Assembly (NCBI GenBank): GCA_030429105.1
Contig: JAUIDE010000009.1
Span: 1-64,000 of the forward strand
Reading direction: 5' to 3'
DNA: 64,000 nt
Source: Alphaproteobacteria bacterium
GTDB taxonomy: Bacteria > Pseudomonadota > Alphaproteobacteria > Rhodobacterales > Rhodobacteraceae
Shown: positions 87 through 43,182 of the stretch, piece after piece
Layout: each line of letters opens with the position of its first letter
Numbering within the stretch: the first letter of the stretch is position 1
Notes under the pieces: generated by a model
Databases searched by the model: none
Told to the model about the DNA's origin: nothing
The model's input: only the letters and a program-made list of their open reading frames with translations
Made by a program: the position numbers and the translations under genes

Positions 87-116
87 TTGACACCCGCGAA
101 GCCTCAGTGCTACGAC
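87..116 (+). promoter_or_regulatory. candidate sigma-70 promoter
   Basis: A perfect TTGACA lies at 87-92, followed after 18 bases by TACGAC at 111-116 (or CTACGA after 17). It lies in the divergent gap between the minus-strand start at 25 and the plus-strand ATG at 197, pointing toward the latter. The -10 element is weak, and no transcript evidence is available. Confidence 0.35.
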
Positions 117-196
117 CTGCCAGGATTGAGCCCGCAAAAAGTCCTAGGATTTCGCGACCCTGCGTGGCGACCGGGGCGCACCTCCCTCGCTGGCAA

Positions 197-505
197 ATGA
201 CGATTTCGCGCACCCTGCTCGCTGCAGCGTCGATCCTGGTCGTAGCCCTCTCGGCGGGATGCGGCTCCATCCTGTCGTCGTCCGAGATCACGGCGGCGCG
301 GGGCGCGCTCGTGCTGGGGGACGGGGCGGCCGCGCTCGTCTCCGCGACCGGGGAGGGCGAGGCCGGAGACGGGAGCGATGCGCCGCTCGAGGCCTACGCC
401 GCCGCGGCGCTCAGGCTGAGGGGCGCCGCACCGCGGCCGGCGCCGCGCTATCTCCGCCCGCCCGCCGCCGCGCCGATGGCGCCGCCGCCGCCGATGATCG
501 GATGA
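197..505 (+). CDS. lipoprotein-type leader joined in frame to a TsaB-like C-terminus
   Basis: The first 25 residues look like a lipoprotein signal: a short polar start (MTISRT), a hydrophobic core and the lipobox LSAGC. The rest does not look like a lipoprotein. The segment from LGDGAAAL through RPAPRYLRPP to the PPPPMIG end resembles the C-terminus of TsaB, the partner of TsaD in making the tRNA modification t6A, and rimI follows directly, as is usual for tsaB. A normal TsaB is about 200 residues and has an ASKHA-fold N-terminal half; that part is absent and the 5' side is of different composition. It may be a broken tsaB joined to unrelated DNA, or an assembly junction. The stop overlaps the rimI start (ATGA). 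There is no clear ribosome binding site before 197. Confidence 0.5.
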   Translation: MTISRTLLAAASILVVALSAGCGSILSSSEITAARGALVLGDGAAALVSATGEGEAGDGSDAPLEAYAAAALRLRGAAPRPAPRYLRPPAAAPMAPPPPMIG

Positions 506-951
506 TCGCCCGCCGCGCCGCGCCCTCGCCGGCGCATCTCGAAACGCTCGCCCGGCTCCATGAAGAAGCCTTCGCGCCGGAGCGCGGCTGGAGCGCGGGG
601 GAGATCGCGGCGCTCGCCGAAGGCGGGCTCCTCCTTTCGGCGGAGGACGGCTCGGCCTTCGCCCTCCTCTCCCGCGCGGCGGACGAGGCGGAATTGCTGA
701 CCATCGCGGTTGCGGCGGGAGCCCGGCGTCGCGGCCTTGGCGCGCGCCTGCTCGCGGCGGCGGAGGCGGCGGCGCGGGCGGAGGGGGCGCGCCTCCTCCA
801 TCTCGAAGTCGCGGAGGATAACGAGGCCGCGCGCCGGCTCTACGCCGCCGCCGGCTGGGAGGAGGCGGGGCGAAGACCACGCTATTACCTCCGCCCCGGC
901 GGCGCCCGCGTCGACGCGGTGCTGATGCGGAAGGCGGCGCCGGCGCCCTGA
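502..951 (+). CDS. rimI: RimI-like ribosomal protein S18 N-acetyltransferase
   Basis: A 149-residue GNAT protein. The acetyl-CoA binding motif A is visible as the run ending RRRGLGARLLAAAE (residues about 73-86), followed by LHLEVAEDNEAARRLY and the AGW...YY pattern typical of RimI. RimI acetylates the N-terminal alanine of ribosomal protein S18. The ATG at 502 overlaps the stop of the TsaB-like frame, so the two are translationally coupled; a tsaB-rimI pair is common in alphaproteobacteria and supports the name. The length is normal for the family (about 140-160). The catalytic assignment is by family only. Confidence 0.75.
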   Translation: MIARRAAPSPAHLETLARLHEEAFAPERGWSAGEIAALAEGGLLLSAEDGSAFALLSRAADEAELLTIAVAAGARRRGLGARLLAAAEAAARAEGARLLHLEVAEDNEAARRLYAAAGWEEAGRRPRYYLRPGGARVDAVLMRKAAPAP

Positions 952-1031
952 CGCCCGGCTATCGACATGCCTTCCCCCTTGCGCTATCCCCCGGCGCGAC
1001 ACAGATCACGCCCGAAAGGGAGCCGCCGCGC

Positions 1032-1394
1032 ATGGAAAACGTCATCCTGATCGTCCACCTCGTGATCGCGGTGTTCCTGATCGCCGTCGTGCTCCTTCAG
1101 CGCTCCGAGGGCGGCGCGCTCGGCATCGGCGGCGGGGGCGGCGGCGGGCTCGTCTCCTCCCGCGGGGCCACCAGCGCGCTGGCGAAGGTGACCTGGGCGC
1201 TCGCTGCGGCCTTCATCGCGACATCGCTGACGCTGACGGTGATCGCGGCCACCTCCTCCGGCGGCCGCTCGGTGATCGAGGGCGTCTCCACGGGCGTGCC
1301 CGAGGCGGACGACACGCCCGCCCTGCCGGGCGCCGGCGGCTTCAGCCTGCCGACGCTCCCCTCCGCGCCGACGGAGCCGCCCGCGGCGGACTGA
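1032..1394 (+). CDS. secG: SecG, protein translocase subunit
   Basis: A 120-residue inner-membrane protein with two hydrophobic segments (about 4-22 and 51-72) separated by a glycine-rich loop. The motif VLLQRSEGGALG is the SecG signature (LLQ..kG...G). SecG assists SecYE during protein export. The tail is rich in proline, alanine and glycine, and low in conservation, as is common in alphaproteobacteria. pyrG follows 140 bases downstream on the same strand, a conserved neighbour. Confidence 0.93.
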   Translation: MENVILIVHLVIAVFLIAVVLLQRSEGGALGIGGGGGGGLVSSRGATSALAKVTWALAAAFIATSLTLTVIAATSSGGRSVIEGVSTGVPEADDTPALPGAGGFSLPTLPSAPTEPPAAD

Positions 1395-1534
1395 TCCGGG
1401 CGGGAGGGGGCGGATCGGCGGTTGTGGCGCCGGCGCGAATCCGCTATCTCTCGACTCCCGTGGAACGACATGTTGCGGTTGCGGCTTCGCCGGCCGCGAG
1501 ATGATGGATAACCAGCGGAACGCGGGGGCCGGCG

Positions 1535-3181
1535 GTGGCGCGATACATCTTCATCACGGGCGGCGTCGTCTCCTCCCTCGGCAAGGGCCTCGCCTCCGCG
1601 GCGCTCGGGGCGCTGTTGCAGGCGCGGGGATTCTCCGTCCGGCTCCGGAAGCTCGACCCCTATCTCAACGTCGACCCGGGCACGATGAGCCCGTTCGAGC
1701 ATGGCGAGGTCTTCGTCACCGATGACGGCGCGGAGACGGACCTCGACCTCGGCCACTACGAGCGCTTCACGGGCGTCCCCTGCCGGCGGACGGACAGCGT
1801 CAGCGCCGGGCGCATCTACACCAACGTGCTGGAGAAGGAGCGGAACGGCGACTATCTCGGCAAGACCATCCAGGTGATCCCCCACGTCACCAACGAGATC
1901 AAGGACTGGCTCGCCATCGGCGAGGACGAGACCGATTTCATGCTCTGCGAGATCGGCGGCACGGTGGGGGACATCGAGGGCCTGCCCTTCTTCGAGGCGA
2001 TCCGGCAGTTCATGCAGCAGCGGCCGAAGGGCGACTGCATCCTGATGCACCTGACGCTCCTGCCCTATCTCGCCGCCTCCCACGAGCTGAAGACGAAGCC
2101 GACGCAGCATTCGGTGAAGGAGCTGCGCTCCATCGGGCTACAGCCCGACATCCTCGTCTGCCGCACGGAGCATCCGATCCCCGAATCGGAGCGGGCGAAG
2201 ATCGCGCTCTTCTGCAACGTGCGGCCCGAGGCCGTGATCCCGGCGATGGACCTCCCCTCGATCTACAAGGCGCCCATCGCCTATCACGAGGTCGGGCTCG
2301 ACCAGGCGGTGCTCGACGCCTTCGGCATCTCCCCCGCGCCGAAGCCCCAGCTCGACCGCTGGCGCGACGTGGCGGAGCGGATCGACAACCCGGACGGCGA
2401 GGTGCGGATCGCCGTCGTCGGCAAGTATGTGAAGCTCGAGGACGCCTACAAGAGCCTCGCCGAGGCGCTGACCCATGGCGGCTTCGCCAACCGGGTGAAG
2501 GTGCGCGCGGAGTGGATCGACGCCGAGATCTTCGAGCGGGAGGATGCGGCGCCGCATCTCCAGGGCTTCCACGCGATCCTCGTGCCCGGCGGCTTCGGCG
2601 AGCGGGGGACGGAGGGGAAGATCCGCGCCGCGCAGTTCGCGCGGGAGCGGCGGGTGCCCTATCTCGGCATCTGCCTCGGCATGCAGATGGCGGTGATCGA
2701 GGCGGCGCGGAACCTCGCCGGGCTCGACAAGGCCGGGAGCCAGGAATTCGACCATGAGGGCGCGGGCGGCGGCCGGTTCGAGCATGTCGTCTATCACATG
2801 TCCGAATGGGTGGAGGGCAACAAGGTCGTCCGCCGCAAGGCCGACGACGCCAAGGGCGGCACGATGCGCCTCGGCGCCTATGACGCGATCCTGACGCCGG
2901 GGAGCCGGGTGGCGGAGATCTATGGCTCGCTCACGATCAGCGAACGCCACCGCCACCGCTACGAGGTGGACAGCAAGTACCTGAAACGGCTGGAGGAGAC
3001 GGGCCTCCGCTTCTCCGGCCTCTCGCCGGACGGCGCGCTGCCGGAGATCGTGGAGATTCCGGACCATCCGTGGTTCGTCGGCGTGCAGTTCCATCCCGAG
3101 CTGAAGTCGAAGCCGTTCGCGCCGCATCCGCTGTTTGCGGATTTTGTCAGGGCGGCGATGGAGCAGTCGCGGTTGGTGTGA
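1535..3181 (+). CDS. pyrG: CTP synthase
   Basis: Makes CTP from UTP, ATP and glutamine in the cytoplasm. It is 548 residues, normal for PyrG. The N-terminal synthetase domain starts with the P-loop-like [10 protein letters not shown] (residues 9-18) and contains GGTVGDIE (about 141-148). The C-terminal class I glutamine amidotransferase domain shows the oxyanion strand GGFGERG (about 352-358), the nucleophile Cys380 in LGICLGMQ, and the His/Glu pair in VQFHPEL near residue 520. The start is GTG at 1535, which places the conserved RYIFITGG directly at the N-terminus. No convincing terminator follows; lower-GC DNA begins within 60 bases of the stop. Confidence 0.97.
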
Positions 3182-3424
3182 TGGGGTGGGGAGACAGATA
3201 TTGATAGCGCTTGGTGCAACGGTGCGTTTTCCAAAATAGGCTGTCATCCTATAAATAATATCCTCATAGTCTGGACAGGGATCTTCATTCTGTTTCAATC
3301 ATACAATAATCGTCGAGAACCTGGATTTCTGTGGCAACTGCCCCGTACAAGAATCGAGCCGAATCTCGGAAGCTCTTTTAGTCACTGCCGCCCCAAATTC
3401 TGCGCGACGCCCGGATATCCGGTT

Positions 3425-3520
3425 GGTCAGTTCCAGCGTGAGGTGCAACACCTTTGACGGATAATTTATCCGTGTGTTATCAAACAAGAAACGGTGTTTC
3501 ATCTCACGCTGGAACTGACC
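3425..3520. repeat. 96-bp inverted-repeat element
   Basis: Two 28-base arms (3425-3452 and 3493-3520) are inverted copies of each other with 26 of 28 positions matching. The outer 18 bases, starting GGTCAGTTCCAGCGTGAG, match perfectly. The inner 40 bases are AT-rich. A perfect 12-bp palindrome CCGGATATCCGG sits just outside at 3411-3422. The arms look like insertion-sequence ends, but no transposase lies between them, so this may be a miniature element or two facing relic ends. The flanking 3182-3424 has no convincing gene. The element abuts the decayed recombinase. Confidence 0.6.
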
Positions 3521-3527
3521 CTCACCC

Positions 3528-3976
3528 CGCGCGAATGTCTCGGATACCGATCCCCGGTCCAAGCCTTCCTCTCACAGCTTGGCATAGAGATCAGGGTCAG
3601 GTTTGCTTGAGCCGTTGCACTTCGCGATAGAATCCACCGGTCCCTTCGCGACCTTCTCGGCATAGTGGAGGCGATCAGGGACCGTGGCGCGGGCTTCCGG
3701 TCACTGGCCGAGGACTTCGACACGACCACGCCCGCCGGACGGATCGTGCTCCATGTCTTCGCATTGACCGCGCAGTTTGAGCGGGTACCATTATCCGAGC
3801 TCACTAGGGAAGGCTTGGAGGCCGCAAAGCGGCTTGGCCGGATCGGCGGCAGGCCCTTTGCCCTGTCGCCCGCTCAGCAAGAAGAAGTATGCCGGATGAG
3901 GAATGATGAGCATCGTTCTCTGGCCGAGATCGCCCGGCTCTTCAAGTTCATCGTCAAGACATTGCAGAGGGACTAA
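3528..3976 (+). pseudogene. decayed serine recombinase (resolvase/invertase family)
   Basis: The readable part (3665-3976) matches the middle and C-terminus of Tn3-type resolvases: RDRGAGFRSLAEDFDTTTPAGR, followed by an AQFER-like segment, then RIGGRPF and a helix-turn-helix region ending KTLQRD. Resolvable remains of the N-terminal part lie upstream in two frames: R-A-N-V-S-D-T-D near 3528 recalls the catalytic ARVS.DQ motif, and LRDRIHRSLRDLLGIVEAI (about 3608-3664) recalls LDRLGRSLRDL. The catalytic serine region is interrupted by stops and a frame change, so no full enzyme can be made. GC content is lower than in the neighbours. I read it as a relic of a mobile element. Confidence 0.75.
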
Positions 3977-37366: not shown

Positions 37367-37999
37367 TCAGCCCTTCGCCCGCACCCCGCGGAAGACGAGC
37401 CGGAGCACGCCCTCGAATTCCGGCTTGATCGTGGACTTGTCCCGCCATTCGGCGAGGCATTGCGGCACCTGGAAGGCCTTCAGGCAATGCATGAGGTCGA
37501 CCGCCGTCTCCGGCAGGGGCGCCGGCTCGAACGCGCCCGCCGCCATGCCCCGCGCCAGTTCCGCCTCGACCTGCGCCCGTTTCCAGCCGATATGCCGCTC
37601 CAGCACATGGCGCGGCCCGTCCTCTCCGCAGAGGAACTCGCACAGCTCCATGATCTTTGGCGCGCCCGCCATCATCTCCAGCATGGCGGCGAGCCCGGCG
37701 CGGAACATGGCGCAGATGCGCGCCTCCGGCGCCGTCTCCGGCTCCATCGCGGCCGCCATCGAGGCTTCGGAACAGCGGAAGAAGCGCTCGATCACCGCCT
37801 CCCCGATCGCCTGCTTGTTGCGGTAGTAGCGATAGAGATTGCCGGGGGACATGCCGGCCCGCTCCGCGATGTCGGCCATCGACGTCTTGGAGAAGCCGTA
37901 ATGGGAGAAGAGGTCCTCCGCGTGGCGCAGGATTTCGGCGCGCGTCTCGTCCGAATGGTCGGCCGGGCGATGTTCCGCCAATGTCACGGTCAGCGTCAT
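37367..37999 (-). CDS. TetR-family repressor
   Basis: A 210-residue regulator. The N-terminal helix-turn-helix covers residues about 18-63, with GFSKTSMADIAERAGMSPG and NLYRYYRNKQAI as the recognition part. The C-terminal ligand domain belongs to no subgroup I can name with certainty. It is the last gene of a three-gene operon: seven bases separate it from the beta-barrel gene. The probable operator is the inverted repeat at 42479-42512, in front of the first gene. Confidence 0.88.
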   Translation of the reverse strand: MTLTVTLAEHRPADHSDETRAEILRHAEDLFSHYGFSKTSMADIAERAGMSPGNLYRYYRNKQAIGEAVIERFFRCSEASMAAAMEPETAPEARICAMFRAGLAAMLEMMAGAPKIMELCEFLCGEDGPRHVLERHIGWKRAQVEAELARGMAAGAFEPAPLPETAVDLMHCLKAFQVPQCLAEWRDKSTIKPEFEGVLRLVFRGVRAKG

Positions 38000-38006
38000 T
38001 CCTCCC

Positions 38007-39326
38007 TCACCAGAAATACGCCAGTTTCATGCGAATGAAACTGTCGTCGCGAAGGTCCGAGGCGAGCGGGTCATCTCCGCTGTTCACGAAGAGCACCCCT
38101 TCGAGCGAGGCGATCCAACCGTCCGTCACCCGCGTCTCCGCCTCGAGCCGGATCGAGGCCGCGCCGAATTCGTGGTCGATGGCGGAGGTGAGTAGGAAGG
38201 ACGTGTCCGCGATGTCGTTTAGCGCGAGACGGGCGCCGAGGATCACGTCGTTCTGGAAGATCGTCGTGGCGTTCCGGCCGCGGCTGTCGATGGAATATTC
38301 GGCTATGAGGCCGAGATCGGCGTTCTCCAAGAAACCCGTCCCCTCCCCGACGCCGAAGAGCGTGTGTTCGAGTCCGCCCGTCGCGCCGACGAAGGCGCGC
38401 TCGCGCCCGCGGAGATCCTCCTGCCCGTCGCGCCAGATCGCCTCCGCCTTCCAGAGCGTCGCGCCGCTCGTGTACTGGCCGTCGAAGCCGAACTGCGTGA
38501 TCGTCTCGTAGACCGGGACGAGCCGGGTCGGCGCCGGGCCCGCGGGCGTCGCGACGAAGCCGCCGGGGCGCAAGGTCGGGTCCCGCGCAACGCCGTTGAA
38601 GGCGGAAAGGCCGATATCCGCCCCGCCGAACACGCCGGCGAAGCGCGCGGCGAAGGAGGGCGCCCAGCGCCCGCCGTCCCTCTCGATCACCCGCGCATCC
38701 TCATCGACGACGAGCGCGGAGCGGAGCCGCCCCTCTTGCCCCGGAAAGGTCCGGGTGCGGACGTAGGGAAGATAGAAGACGGAGAATTCCCCGATCTCCG
38801 TGAGGCGGGAGACGCGAACCATCGGCTGGCCGAGATTGTCCTCGTCGTCGATATCCTCCACCGCGTCGGTCTGGTTGATGATGTCGACGAGGTGGTTGGC
38901 CTCCGTCTTGCCCCAGAACACGCGGTCGAGGCCGACCGTCGCCTCCCAGTCGCCGCTCCGGAAGTCGAACTTCGCCTCGCGGATGTCGTAATGGCTCCGG
39001 TCGTCATCCGCCGCGGCGGCGCGGGCGAAGGGCGTGAAGGTGAATTCGAGGTCTCCGTCCAGCCATTCCGCCCGGATCGTCGGCTCGATGGCGACGGAGA
39101 GGTCGTGCCGCCGCTGCCCGGCGAAGCGCGGGCCCTCGCCGAAGAGCGTCGCCTCGCCCTCGATCTTGCCGAAGAACTCCGCGTATTCGGGCGTGAAGGG
39201 CCCGAAATCCGCCTCCTCCGCCCGCGCCTCGCAGGGCGACAGCCCGGCGAAAACGAGCGCGGCGAGAGAAAGGGCGGCGCCGGCGCCGAAGCGCTCAGCG
39301 CGCCATGCGGTCGAGACGCTGCGCAT
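38007..39326 (-). CDS. outer-membrane beta-barrel protein
   Basis: A 439-residue protein with a signal peptide (AALSLAALVFAGLSPCEARA, cleavage before EEAD) and alternating aromatic and polar residues throughout, ending in the terminal aromatic KLAYFW typical of porin-like barrels. The middle segment FDFRSGDWEATVGLDRVFWG recalls the DUF1302-like alginate/phenol porins that accompany MMPL exporters. Its ATG at 39326 lies 32 bases inside the 3' end of the MMPL gene, and an AAGGGGA is upstream. It probably forms the outer-membrane part of a lipid or hydrophobe export path. Confidence 0.83.
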   Translation of the reverse strand: MRSVSTAWRAERFGAGAALSLAALVFAGLSPCEARAEEADFGPFTPEYAEFFGKIEGEATLFGEGPRFAGQRRHDLSVAIEPTIRAEWLDGDLEFTFTPFARAAAADDDRSHYDIREAKFDFRSGDWEATVGLDRVFWGKTEANHLVDIINQTDAVEDIDDEDNLGQPMVRVSRLTEIGEFSVFYLPYVRTRTFPGQEGRLRSALVVDEDARVIERDGGRWAPSFAARFAGVFGGADIGLSAFNGVARDPTLRPGGFVATPAGPAPTRLVPVYETITQFGFDGQYTSGATLWKAEAIWRDGQEDLRGRERAFVGATGGLEHTLFGVGEGTGFLENADLGLIAEYSIDSRGRNATTIFQNDVILGARLALNDIADTSFLLTSAIDHEFGAASIRLEAETRVTDGWIASLEGVLFVNSGDDPLASDLRDDSFIRMKLAYFW

Positions 39327-42300
39327 CGAAATCCCCTTCCTCGAGCCCGGCGTTGAAGACGTAGTCGGTCCAGACCAGTTCGGTGCTCTTGCCCGTCTGC
39401 CGGTTTTCCATGCGGATCGTGTCGGGCCGCCAGAACTTGCCGAGATATTGCTGGTAGCCGCCGAAGGTCATCACTTTCTCGAACTCGCCGCGGCGGTTGT
39501 AGAACTCGACCTGGTCGAGCCGGTACTCCGCCTGGTCGATCCAGACGATGGTCTTCGAATAGCCGGACTTCGAGTTCTTCGGCGTCCGCTCGGAGACATA
39601 GCAGGTCCCGCCCAGATTGGGGCAGGGCTCGTCCCTCAGCCACTTGTAGTCATAGTCGTCAACCTCCTGCCCGCCGAGATCCTCGTAGGAAAACTCGGAG
39701 GAGACGAACTTGCCGGTCCTGTTGGAGGAGGAGATGCGCTTCACCCGCTTCACCGCGGGGAGGTAGAGCCACTGGTCGTCATCCGCCGGCTCGATATTGG
39801 CGTGGGTGAGGAGGCCGGTCCCCTTCACGTCGCGCGGCTCGTCGAAGACGATGACGGAGAGGTCTCCGACGCCGCCTTCGGGGCGCTCCTTGATCATGTT
39901 GCGGAAGACGCGGGTCGAGCTCTGGCCCTGGCTGTCGCGCAGGATCATCTGGCCCTGCACCGTGTAGTCGCCGAAGCCGAGGTCCCGCCGGTCCGCCTCC
40001 ATGGCGATGGCGAGGCCCTTTTCCTCCGGGGTCTCGGCCATCACGTCCTTCGCGAAGGCGACGAGGCCGAGGCCGATCAGGCCGGCGGCGACGAGGGCGG
40101 GGGCGGGAGCGGGAATGCGCATGGGCGTTCTCCTCTGGTCGAGCTGGATCAGGAGCGCCGGCAGCAGCAGGAAATCCGCCACGAGCGCGATGGTGATGGT
40201 GATGGCGGTGAGCTTGGCGAGGTCGCCGTTCACCGCGAAGCCGGATTGCGCGAGGACGCCGAACCCGGCGACAAGCCCCGCAGTGGTGACGAAGAGCGCC
40301 ATGCCGACCTTCGAGAAGGCGTAGCGCACCGAATCCTCGGCCGTTTTCCCCTCTTTCCGCGCCTTCGCGTATTTCGAGAGGAAGTGCACCGTGTCGTCCA
40401 CCACGATGCCGAGCGTCGCTGCGAGGACGACCGCGATGGCGAGCGTGACGGCGCCGACACCGTAGCCCCAGAGCCCGAAACCGACGACGGCGGGCAGCAC
40501 ATTCGGGATGAGCGAGATGAGGCCGATCCTGATGTCTCTCAGCGCCAGCATGATGACGGCGGAGATCAGGACGAGGGCGATGGCCGTGCCCGTCAGCATC
40601 GCCCGCGTGTCGCGATAGGAGATGAGGTTGAAGACATGGACGATCCCGGTCGGCGCCGCGGTGAGCGACTGGCCGCCATTCGCTGCGAGCCATGCCTCGG
40701 CCCTGCCGGTCAGATCCCTCATGTCGGAGGTCGTCACGTCCCGCATGTTGAAAGTGACGCGCATGAACTGGCGGGAGACGTCGATCTGGTCCGTCAGGTC
40801 CATGCCGTAGCCGATGGAGAGCTCGTAGAGGAAGAGATATTGCGCCGCCTCGTCCGCATCTTCCGGGATTCGCATGTAGCCCGGATCGTCCGCGTGCATG
40901 TTCATGTTGAGCCGCTTCACCGTGTCGGTGAGCGTGCGGACGTTGACGACCTCCGGCTGCGCGCGGAGCCATTCGGCGAAGCCGTCCACCGTCTTCAGGA
41001 AGGCGGGGTCGTTGATGCCCTGCTCGCGCCCGCTGTCGACCTTGAATTCGAGCTGGTATAGGCCGGCGAGGCGCTCCTCCGCATAGTCGGTGTCGCGCCG
41101 GAACTCGTAGCTCTCGTCGAAGTATTCGACGAAATTGTCCTCCAGCTTAAGCTGGCTGACGCCGGCCGCCGCCGCAGCGACGACGACGATTCCACCGAGC
41201 AGGATCGGGCGGCGGCGCGCGATCACGAATTCGGCGATCCGGTCCATCGCCAGCCCCGCAGCCGGTCGCGCCGTCTGCCGCCGGAAGGGCAGGATGGCGA
41301 CGAGCGCGGGGAGGAGCGTGAGCGTGTAGATCATCGCCGCCAGCACGCCGAAGCCGGTGATGTTGCCGAGCTGCCGGAACGGCGGAGAGATCGAGAAGTT
41401 GAGCGAAAAGAAGCCTATGGCGGTCGTCACGCAGGCGACGACGATGGGGCCCATATGCTCCGTCAGCGCGCGGCGCGCCCATTCCTTCCGGTCTTCCGTA
41501 TCCACCATGTGCTGGCGAACCGAGACGAGGATGTGGACGGCGGAGGCGACCGCGAGCGTCATCACATATAGCGGCGCCAGCACGGTGACGGAATTGAGCT
41601 GCACCCCCATCCAGCCGAGCGCGCCAAGGCCGCCGAGCGCGGAGAGAATGATGATGAGAAGGACGCTCGCCACGCCGAAGAAGGAGCGGAGCGCGAGCCC
41701 GACGATGAGGAGAATCGCCGCGAACATCAGCGGCGTGAGCGAGGAGGCGTCCTTCTGCCCCGAATCGGCGAATTGCTGGTTGAGCGCGACGGAGCCGGTC
41801 AACCGGAGGTCGATGCCGGGATTGGCGGCCTCGACCCGATCAATCAGCGCCCGCGCCTCGTTGTAGATCTTCGGCCCCTCGACCTCCGGGTTCACGCTGG
41901 GAAGGGTGAAGAGCACCTGCACCTGGGTGATCGAGGCCGCCGGATCGATCATCGAGTTCCGGAGTTCGACGCGGGAGAGGGCGATCTCCTGCGCCTCCGC
42001 CGCCTCCTCCGGCGTGACGTTCGCCGGGTCCTCGACGAGGTCGCGGACGATCATCTCGTCGCCCTCGGCGTAGGTATGCTGGAAATTCGTGATCGAGTTG
42101 ACCCGGCGCACGAAGGGCAGGCGCCACATGTCCTCCGTCATCTGGCCAATCAGGGCGAGCGTCTGGGGCGTGAAGACCTTGCCGTCGAGCGGCTCCACGA
42201 GGAAGACGAGGTTGTCGTCCTTCGAGAACATGGCCTCGAAGGCGTCCAGCCTCTGCCGGTCCGGATTCTCGGGGGCGAAGAAGATGCGCGCGTCAGGGTC

Positions 42301-42444
42301 GATCGGCACGATCCGGTCCAGCCGGGCGACCGAGAGGGCCGCGAGGATCACCGTGAGCGCCAGCCAGGCCCAGCGCCATCGGACGATGAAGGTTGCGATC
42401 CGGGCGCTCGCGCCGCCCTGTTGCTCAACGCCGTCTTTCGCCAT
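39295..42444 (-). CDS. MMPL/RND exporter fused to an outer-membrane lipoprotein-sorting (LolA-like) domain
   Basis: A 1049-residue protein. Residues about 1-774 form an RND/MMPL transporter with two periplasmic loops and two sets of six spans, including VLLIIILSALGGLGALGW and, in the second half, GIVVDDTVHFLSKYAKARK. Around residue 775 the sequence switches without a stop to M-R-I-P, a hydrophobic segment and VMAET, which looks like a complete signal peptide. Then comes a LolA-like domain of the outer membrane lipoprotein-sorting family (YLPAVKRVKRISSSN, TYYVSERTP-like region and a final WTDYVFN). These parts are normally two neighbouring genes. GAGGAG seven bases before the ATG at 40122 suggests a second start. 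GGAGG before the ATG at 42444 supports the main start. Confidence 0.88.
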   Translation of the reverse strand: MAKDGVEQQGGASARIATFIVRWRWAWLALTVILAALSVARLDRIVPIDPDARIFFAPENPDRQRLDAFEAMFSKDDNLVFLVEPLDGKVFTPQTLALIGQMTEDMWRLPFVRRVNSITNFQHTYAEGDEMIVRDLVEDPANVTPEEAAEAQEIALSRVELRNSMIDPAASITQVQVLFTLPSVNPEVEGPKIYNEARALIDRVEAANPGIDLRLTGSVALNQQFADSGQKDASSLTPLMFAAILLIVGLALRSFFGVASVLLIIILSALGGLGALGWMGVQLNSVTVLAPLYVMTLAVASAVHILVSVRQHMVDTEDRKEWARRALTEHMGPIVVACVTTAIGFFSLNFSISPPFRQLGNITGFGVLAAMIYTLTLLPALVAILPFRRQTARPAAGLAMDRIAEFVIARRRPILLGGIVVVAAAAAGVSQLKLEDNFVEYFDESYEFRRDTDYAEERLAGLYQLEFKVDSGREQGINDPAFLKTVDGFAEWLRAQPEVVNVRTLTDTVKRLNMNMHADDPGYMRIPEDADEAAQYLFLYELSIGYGMDLTDQIDVSRQFMRVTFNMRDVTTSDMRDLTGRAEAWLAANGGQSLTAAPTGIVHVFNLISYRDTRAMLTGTAIALVLISAVIMLALRDIRIGLISLIPNVLPAVVGFGLWGYGVGAVTLAIAVVLAATLGIVVDDTVHFLSKYAKARKEGKTAEDSVRYAFSKVGMALFVTTAGLVAGFGVLAQSGFAVNGDLAKLTAITITIALVADFLLLPALLIQLDQRRTPMRIPAPAPALVAAGLIGLGLVAFAKDVMAETPEEKGLAIAMEADRRDLGFGDYTVQGQMILRDSQGQSSTRVFRNMIKERPEGGVGDLSVIVFDEPRDVKGTGLLTHANIEPADDDQWLYLPAVKRVKRISSSNRTGKFVSSEFSYEDLGGQEVDDYDYKWLRDEPCPNLGGTCYVSERTPKNSKSGYSKTIVWIDQAEYRLDQVEFYNRRGEFEKVMTFGGYQQYLGKFWRPDTIRMENRQTGKSTELVWTDYVFNAGLEEGDFDAQRLDRMAR

Positions 42445-42478
42445 GCGCGGCCTCCGCCCGGTTTCGCCGCGGAATAGC

Positions 42479-42660: not shown

Positions 42661-43182
42661 ATGAACCGCCGCTTCGCTCTCGCCGCATTCGCCCTCCCCG
42701 CCGCGCTCGCCCTCGGCGCAGCCGCACTGGAGGATCGCAGCCTCGCCTTTCCCTCGGATTACCGGACCAGCTTCAGCAACTACCTGATTTCGGACCGATT
42801 GGGGCAGGAGGACCAGATCATGAATTTCTGGGCCAACGACATCGCCCGCAAGGCGGCGCAGGCGGGCGAGCCGCTGCCGGACGGATCCGTGCTCGTCGCG
42901 GAAATCTACAAGGCAAAGAAGGACGATTCGGGCGAGGTGATCGAATCGCAGCTCGGTCGCCGCATTGCGGGCGAGATGTCGGTCATCCTCGTGATGGAGC
43001 GGAAAGCGGGCTGGGCGGAGCAGTATCCGGACGATCTGAAGGTCGGCGGCTGGGAGTTCGAGGCCTTCAGCCCCACGGGCGAGAACCTGAACCGGGACAC
43101 GACGGCCTGCCGGGAATGCCATCAGCCGCTGGCGGACACGGAATACACCTGGTCCTATCCGCACATGGCCGGGCTGAACTGA
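42661..43182 (+). CDS. cytochrome P460-family protein
   Basis: A 173-residue exported c-type haem protein. A signal peptide (MNRRFALAAFALPAALALGA) is followed by a short beta-rich domain and a single haem site CRECH (residues about 149-153) near the C-terminus. The layout, with FPSDYRTSFSNYLI after the leader and the haem motif at the end, fits the cytochrome P460 family. P460 enzymes oxidise hydroxylamine-like compounds, but many relatives have other roles. AGGAAGGA precedes the ATG. It is divergent from the MMPL operon, and the shared gap holds the operator, so the TetR protein may also act on it. Confidence 0.78.
   Translation: MNRRFALAAFALPAALALGAAALEDRSLAFPSDYRTSFSNYLISDRLGQEDQIMNFWANDIARKAAQAGEPLPDGSVLVAEIYKAKKDDSGEVIESQLGRRIAGEMSVILVMERKAGWAEQYPDDLKVGGWEFEAFSPTGENLNRDTTACRECHQPLADTEYTWSYPHMAGLN

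Follow-up and report, generated by a model that had tools for sequence, protein, structure and literature searches.

A conserved internal start signal in an MMPL exporter gene fused in frame to a LolA-like periplasmic domain

Does a gene in which a membrane exporter runs without a stop codon into a periplasmic protein give one product or two? The question is raised by an open reading frame (ORF) from an alphaproteobacterium of the family Rhodobacteraceae, located at positions 39295-42444 on the minus strand of a stretch of 64,000 nucleotides, called the window here, which comprises positions 1 to 64,000 of contig JAUIDE010000009.1 (assembly GCA_030429105.1). The ORF begins with ATG and codes in a single frame for 1049 amino acids, in which an MMPL exporter, the pump, is followed by a LolA-like domain, termed the carrier below. 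An earlier note, made from the sequence alone, had drawn attention to a second start signal and a signal peptide at the junction of the two parts. The comparison of related genomes suggests that this one gene probably yields both the fusion protein and a separate carrier.

The fused frame and its internal start

No internal stop codon was found in 39295-42444(-) between the ATG and the terminal stop. The first part of the protein, about residues 1-771 (40132-42444, minus strand), was identified as an MMPL/RND exporter by Pfam, AlphaFold2 helices and Foldseek; MMPL (PF03176) matched in two stretches of the fusion protein with 95.4 bits at a cut-off of 20.5. The second part, encoded by 39298-40035 (minus strand), carries the LolA_like family PF17131 at residues 862-1046 with 192.1 bits at a cut-off of 30, and DUF1329, Patched and SecD_SecF_C were also above cut-off in the fusion protein, more weakly. 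With both domains well above their cut-offs and no stop between them, the in-frame fusion described in the earlier note was confirmed. Pump and carrier are well modelled by AlphaFold2, with a mean predicted local distance difference test score (pLDDT) of 88.2, and an RND fold was recognized from 12 predicted transmembrane helices, counted by eye on the model, the last of which ends near residue 768. By Foldseek, the pump part is closest to MmpL4 and MmpL5 (TM-score by target 0.71-0.77 in the top seven rows), with HpnN also matched, and the carrier was assigned to its solved free homologue 3bk5 both by phmmer (E 8.3e-70) and by Foldseek (TM-score by target 0.90, 50% identity).

The assignment to narrower subfamilies gave negative results. 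The best NCBIfam match of the pump, the HAE3 subfamily TIGR00921, reached 130.8 bits and stayed under its curated cut-off of 351.9, as did both models of the hopanoid transporter HpnN (NF052374, 88.6 bits versus 1100; TIGR03480, 125.9 versus 751.85). For the carrier, no canonical LolA model was above cut-off; the only match, obtained with the 275-residue part, was NF053572 with 15.6 bits versus 100. The term LolA is thus a family label which gives no demonstration of lipoprotein sorting, and the sorting function that had been attached to the domain was not upheld.

Since the source genome is a 4.46-Mb draft in 201 contigs, in which the fusion gene is present in one copy, a stop codon deleted by an assembly or sequencing error had to be considered. 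The same unbroken frame was identified in 15 genomes from 4 genera, by which such an error was rejected as the cause of the fusion; its probability is negligible.

At the junction the bases read GAGGAG AACGCCC ATG, with a gap of seven bases, followed by 275 amino acids to the stop, exactly as had been claimed. The internal Shine-Dalgarno (SD) sequence is located at 40130-40135(-), mostly within the arginine codons AGG AGA, and the in-frame ATG at 40120-40122(-). The first start of the ORF is preceded by GGAGG at 42451-42455(-), with -9.5 kcal/mol for the duplex with the anti-SD, and the value at the junction ATG is -9.0 kcal/mol, so that judged from the sequence both starts look functional. 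Of the remaining in-frame ATGs in the ORF, 28 were compared, after exclusion of the first 40 codons and of the 60 codons ahead of the domain start, and none equalled the junction value.

The internal ATG is present in all 15 complete fusions. Their mean anti-SD energy is -6.75 at the junction, where the strongest of several ATGs was used, versus -2.30 (sd 2.43) for 516 in-frame ATGs elsewhere. The AGG core ends 9 bases ahead of the internal ATG in 14 of the 15 genes and 10 bases ahead in the remaining one (L006). In the eight linker codons before the ATG, the 24 arginine codons of the 15 fusions consist of 14 AGG, 6 AGA, 3 CGA and 1 CGT, so that 20/24 are AGG or AGA, compared to 40/936 elsewhere in the same ORFs (28 AGG, 12 AGA); the binomial p for linker AGG is 6.8e-16, a value that overstates the evidence, since the rows are related. 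The fused proteins of the other genera are only about 60-63% identical to the one in the window, and synonymous sites would therefore have had time to change. Random synonymous recoding of the linker gave a weaker mean SD in 15/15 fusions, with 0 to 755 of 2000 recodings per gene as strong as the native sequence. An SD and a start codon have thus been kept inside the frame at the nucleotide level, and in this respect the internal start signal of the earlier note was borne out.

Taken singly, some of these genes are less clear. In L038, 8 of 38 other ATGs are equally strong, the highest such count, and a later ATG within the leader outscores the junction ATG both there and in L039. The SD is individually weak evidence in L006, where 755/2000 recodings equalled it, and in L037 (307), L002 (288) and L035 (275). 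The SD-like run could also be read as a ribosome pause which aids insertion of the last membrane span, since the rare codons AGG and AGA directly follow helix 12. However, a pause leaves the ATG in 15/15 fusions at near-fixed spacing unexplained, and in L006 the motif is spelled AAA GGA, with neither AGG nor AGA as a codon; this explanation is very improbable.

Fused and split forms across genomes

Four genomes of the genus to which the window belongs were searched. The window's own genome and G003 (74% identical) contain the fusion, G002 contains two fragments of the fusion gene only, and in the single-contig genome G001 a weak match of 147 residues was all that was found, so that the gene is not universal even within this genus. 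In a draw of 295 genomes from the family, 40 matched at E <= 1e-10, and four contained the unbroken full-length frame (the window's own genome, G196, G011 and G057). The genera of G196 and G011 are represented by one genome each in the sample. The genus of G057 is represented by 14 genomes, of which 13 matched; 11 are fused, one (G305) is split and one (G297) has a single frame with a deletion. The comparison of fused and split orthologues had been set beforehand as a test, and with G003 and three further genera fused, the genes are not split in all close relatives.

The frame of G297 (L046/L054, MAG-169) is shortened by an in-frame deletion that spans the junction and the greater part of the carrier, about 200 residues in all; this is either a real loss or an assembly collapse.

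The wider draws comprised 390 genomes of the order (7 matching at 1e-100), 385 of the class (59 at 1e-100) and 398 of the phylum (54 at 1e-60). Fusions were parsed there at the loci and at places flagged by long frames (L063-L096, L097-L132), the remaining rows being judged from the match table, and the frame of G1091 was the only one, apart from that in the window, seen to cover both parts with no stop in between. The 84 distinct pump loci up to L096 (92 less 8 duplicates, with loci from L097 onward outside these counts) comprise 15 complete fusions, the deleted fusion L046, 47 split loci and 21 in which the stretch examined showed no carrier, some of them cut by a contig end.

Several other frames were tried as fusions and rejected. 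In G213, G841, G1064, G1238, G1267, G1023 and G716, long frames of more than 1000 amino acids had hinted at a fusion and a stop was found between the genes in each; the reported frame length can exceed the true frame of split pairs, and minus-strand loci (L001, L006 and others) are stored unturned. G093 has a TAA between the genes, and in G879 the MMPL part is joined to a different domain. In this last locus (L128; G879:C86:18800-22600, positions 91-3711) the pump shares its frame with an alpha-hydroxyketone autoinducer synthase-like domain (NF005526, 498.5 bits versus a cut-off of 428), by its sequence a possible synthase-exporter fusion.

In 46 of the 47 split loci pump and carrier are close together; in L067 the carrier is 995 nt away. 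The earlier suggestion that exporter and LolA-like protein act together fits these data insofar as the two belong together, as neighbours in 47 distinct loci and fused in 15 genomes. The pairs overlap by 1 or 4 nt (TGATG or ATGA) in 19 of the 45 split loci that gave a start (all except L019 and L067), although the start nearest to the pump stop was chosen, which favours overlaps, and three starts (L057, L076, L092) are unlikely by eye. In several split loci an SD-like run lies within the final pump codons. Overlaps of one or four bases are typical of translationally coupled genes. At the internal start, 12 of the 15 fusions read ATGA, the pattern expected from a former ATGA overlap whose TGA is no longer in frame, and these junctions may preserve a trace of the ancestral arrangement.

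The split pair of G305, which has an ATGA overlap with an SD, groups in a tree of the pump part with four fused congeners (support 100/99), in an otherwise fused genus. A single fused clade was rejected by the approximately unbiased (AU) test with p 0.0022, L046 being counted as fused. A first tree was calculated with eight remote split rows left out; the second tree, from which these results come, was built with 11 chosen split rows, and L063 was flagged in it as a long branch. From the placement of G305 and the AU test it follows that fused and split forms interchange; at least two changes between them are needed, and the tree fits several fusions as well as a single fusion followed by a return to the split state. 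A one-base assembly error may lie behind the split form of G305, against which stands its linker, which exceeds that of its neighbour L035 by 17 bases.

The fusion in G1091 (L129, contig C56, minus strand) is a real but remote, separate MMPL-LolA fusion, 27% identical and cut by a contig end.

The leader and the origin of the carrier

The internal ATG opens a leader of 29 residues, a predicted signal peptide (40036-40122, minus strand), with the sequence MRIPAPAPALVAAGLIGLGLVAFAKDVMA, followed by ET after the predicted cleavage site (VMA/ET), in accordance with the leader end claimed before. Read by eye, the leader ends of all 15 fusions have Ala at -1 and Ala, Ser, Thr or Val at -3; 12 are of the type A-x-A and 3 of the type V/S/T-x-A. 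Ala at -1 together with a small residue at -3 is the pattern of signal peptidase I. Signal peptidase therefore probably frees the carrier from the fusion as well.

The earlier note had instead proposed that in the fusion the leader acts as an extra membrane span. In that case it would stay as a 13th span which keeps the carrier attached to the pump, and the internal start might supply some free carrier alongside. The retention of the fusion in 15 genomes agrees with a tether, and the linker carries two to three positive charges where the cytoplasmic side is expected, which suits a span. However, cleavage-type ends are present in 15/15 leaders, a congener without the fusion (G305) lies within the fused group, and no confident helix was modelled at residues 774-803, where the pLDDT is below 50, a low confidence which is not proof of the absence of a span. 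Tethering is therefore the weaker option and is considered unlikely.

A further explanation retains the cleavage and dispenses with the second start: a polyprotein would be made as one chain from which signal peptidase frees the carrier, and the internal start, little used, would be a relic of the split state. The cleavage-type ends support this as well. Moreover, 5 of the 15 fused leaders have no Lys or Arg in residues 2-11 after the internal Met, versus 3 of 45 split leaders (p 0.019, from rows that are not independent), and two to three Lys or Arg are present in the eight residues preceding the internal Met in 15/15 fusions. Positive charges before but not after the Met suggest that in some lineages the fusion itself is the export substrate, which together with the cleavage-type end points to carrier release from the fusion. 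In L129 the leader ends AAADE and no ATG lies ahead; the GTG codons there score a weak SD (-2.5 and -1.3). Judging from this locus an internal start may not always be needed, and L129, provided that its assembly is right, seems to be a natural case of a carrier supplied by the fusion only. Yet a relic should decay, whereas the ATG is present in 15/15 fusions at near-constant spacing, with an SD mostly in rare codons, across genera at the low identity given above. As the sole source of the carrier, the polyprotein is rather unlikely.

What we favour, as the somewhat more probable course, is that a coupled three-part exporter operon lost a stop codon and that the carrier is produced both from the internal start and by the signal peptidase cut. 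The operon would be a translationally coupled set for the export of hydrophobic molecules through the envelope, with the MMPL/RND pump in the inner membrane, the LolA-like carrier in the periplasm and a barrel in the outer membrane, and the fusion gene would be its first half. In the ancestral state the pump and carrier genes would have overlapped by one or four bases, as in many relatives. In the fused lineage the pump stop was presumably lost and the carrier fell into the frame of the pump, while selection would have kept the SD, the ATG and the signal peptide of the carrier. Ribosomes finishing the pump would give the fusion of 1049 residues and others, initiating at the ATG at 40122, a pre-protein of 275 residues. 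In both products the leader would most likely be cut by signal peptidase I, so that the carrier would mainly be a free periplasmic protein. In this picture the fusion and its conservation, the start signal kept at the nucleotide level, the conserved cleavage-type ends, the split form among fused genes and the gene order are observed, and internal-start use, leader cleavage, coupling and the carrying of lipids are inferred.

Besides the single-gene results and leader charges described above, two further observations weigh against this course: 255 of the 295 family genomes have no match at 1e-10, and the relatives of known record type are metagenome-assembled genomes.

More tentatively, the frame could be seen as a polyprotein and a nested gene at once. 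Each pump would bring one cut-off carrier, to which the internal start would add a tunable surplus, and the stop codon would be an evolutionary switch, changed more than once in the group, which sets the ratio of pump to carrier and leaves the proteins unchanged.

Neighbouring genes and known systems

Downstream of the fusion gene, a gene for an outer-membrane beta-barrel-like protein of 439 amino acids, ending in KLAYFW, is located at 38007-39326(-); its first 32 nt are shared with the end of the fusion ORF. The AlphaFold2 model of this protein (pLDDT 80.8) matched AlgE and porins best in Foldseek (E 2.8e-11, TM about 0.5), and Pfam gave no match at E 0.01. A barrel-type gene is next in 14/15 fused loci (L036 gave no row), and a barrel-type frame with an aromatic last residue is next in 10 distinct split loci, the stretch being too short to tell in many others. 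A TetR-family regulator (TetR_N, Pfam) follows at 37367-37999(-), 7 nt past the barrel gene. No inverted repeats that could form a TetR site were identified upstream of the operon at seed 6, length 8 and distance <= 30. A cytochrome P460-like gene (PF16694) at 42661-43182(+) is divergent from the operon.

The fused architecture has already been published: TOL_3187 of Thalassolituus oleivorans is described as a single MMPL-LolA protein, up 42-fold, and TOL_3188 was detected only on the alkane n-C28 (PMC6304351). This protein from another bacterium was likened to the one in the window by its description, not by sequence, and in the text of that report available to us no internal start or leader is mentioned for it (PMC6304351). 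Among the titles and openings of abstracts listed by a literature search, with preprints and most subscription journals outside it, none described a conserved internal start in an MMPL-LolA gene or an interchange of fused and split forms.

In Castellaniella defragrans, deletion of the monoterpene exporter AmeABCD lowers monoterpene tolerance; its parts are encoded together, with AmeD as a pump of the HAE3 family of RND proteins, AmeB as a periplasmic LolA-superfamily protein (DUF1329) and AmeA as an outer-membrane protein (PMC6394551). An RND pump, a LolA-superfamily protein and an outer-membrane protein are thus brought together in both systems, and DUF1329 is above its cut-off of 23.1 in the carrier, with 37.4 bits in the whole protein and 42.9 in the 275-residue part, over about 75 residues only and far below PF17131. 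However, AmeABCD consists of four separate genes with the pump last, and AmeA belongs to DUF1302 (PMC6394551), whereas in the window PF17131 is the best match of the carrier and the barrel matches neither DUF1302 nor any other Pfam family. An AmeC-like gene was not present among the two flanking genes scanned (TetR, cytochrome P460), the search for AmeC being confined to these. Because AmeABCD confers monoterpene tolerance and TOL_3187/3188 rise on a long alkane, our best guess is that a hydrophobic molecule is passed from the pump to the carrier and on to the barrel. For most solved LolA-superfamily proteins of this type the periplasmic function is unknown, according to the same report (PMC6394551). 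In the natural fusion such a protein is joined to a pump of the MMPL family, and a barrel gene is adjacent; the hand-over from pump to carrier thereby becomes testable in one chain. For annotation, a gene finder that keeps only the longest frame would miss a second, separately exported protein.

The split MMPL and LolA_like operons of Proteobacteria have the pump followed by the carrier, as in the window, but with a stop codon between them. The Bradyrhizobium fbcH gene codes for a cytochrome b/c1 precursor, in which a polytopic inner-membrane protein and a leader-bearing periplasmic protein share one frame and are separated by signal peptidase; these belong to a respiratory complex, and we know of no internal start there. 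It is a precedent for the polyprotein explanation considered above. To our knowledge, the internal start of sctQ genes such as hrcQ opens no signal peptide. These genes are reported to yield two products in the same frame, the full-length protein and a C-terminal one that begins at an internal ATG for which a potential SD is present (PMC8553256). They share the internal in-frame start with the gene in the window, and their product is a component of type III secretion (PMC8553256).
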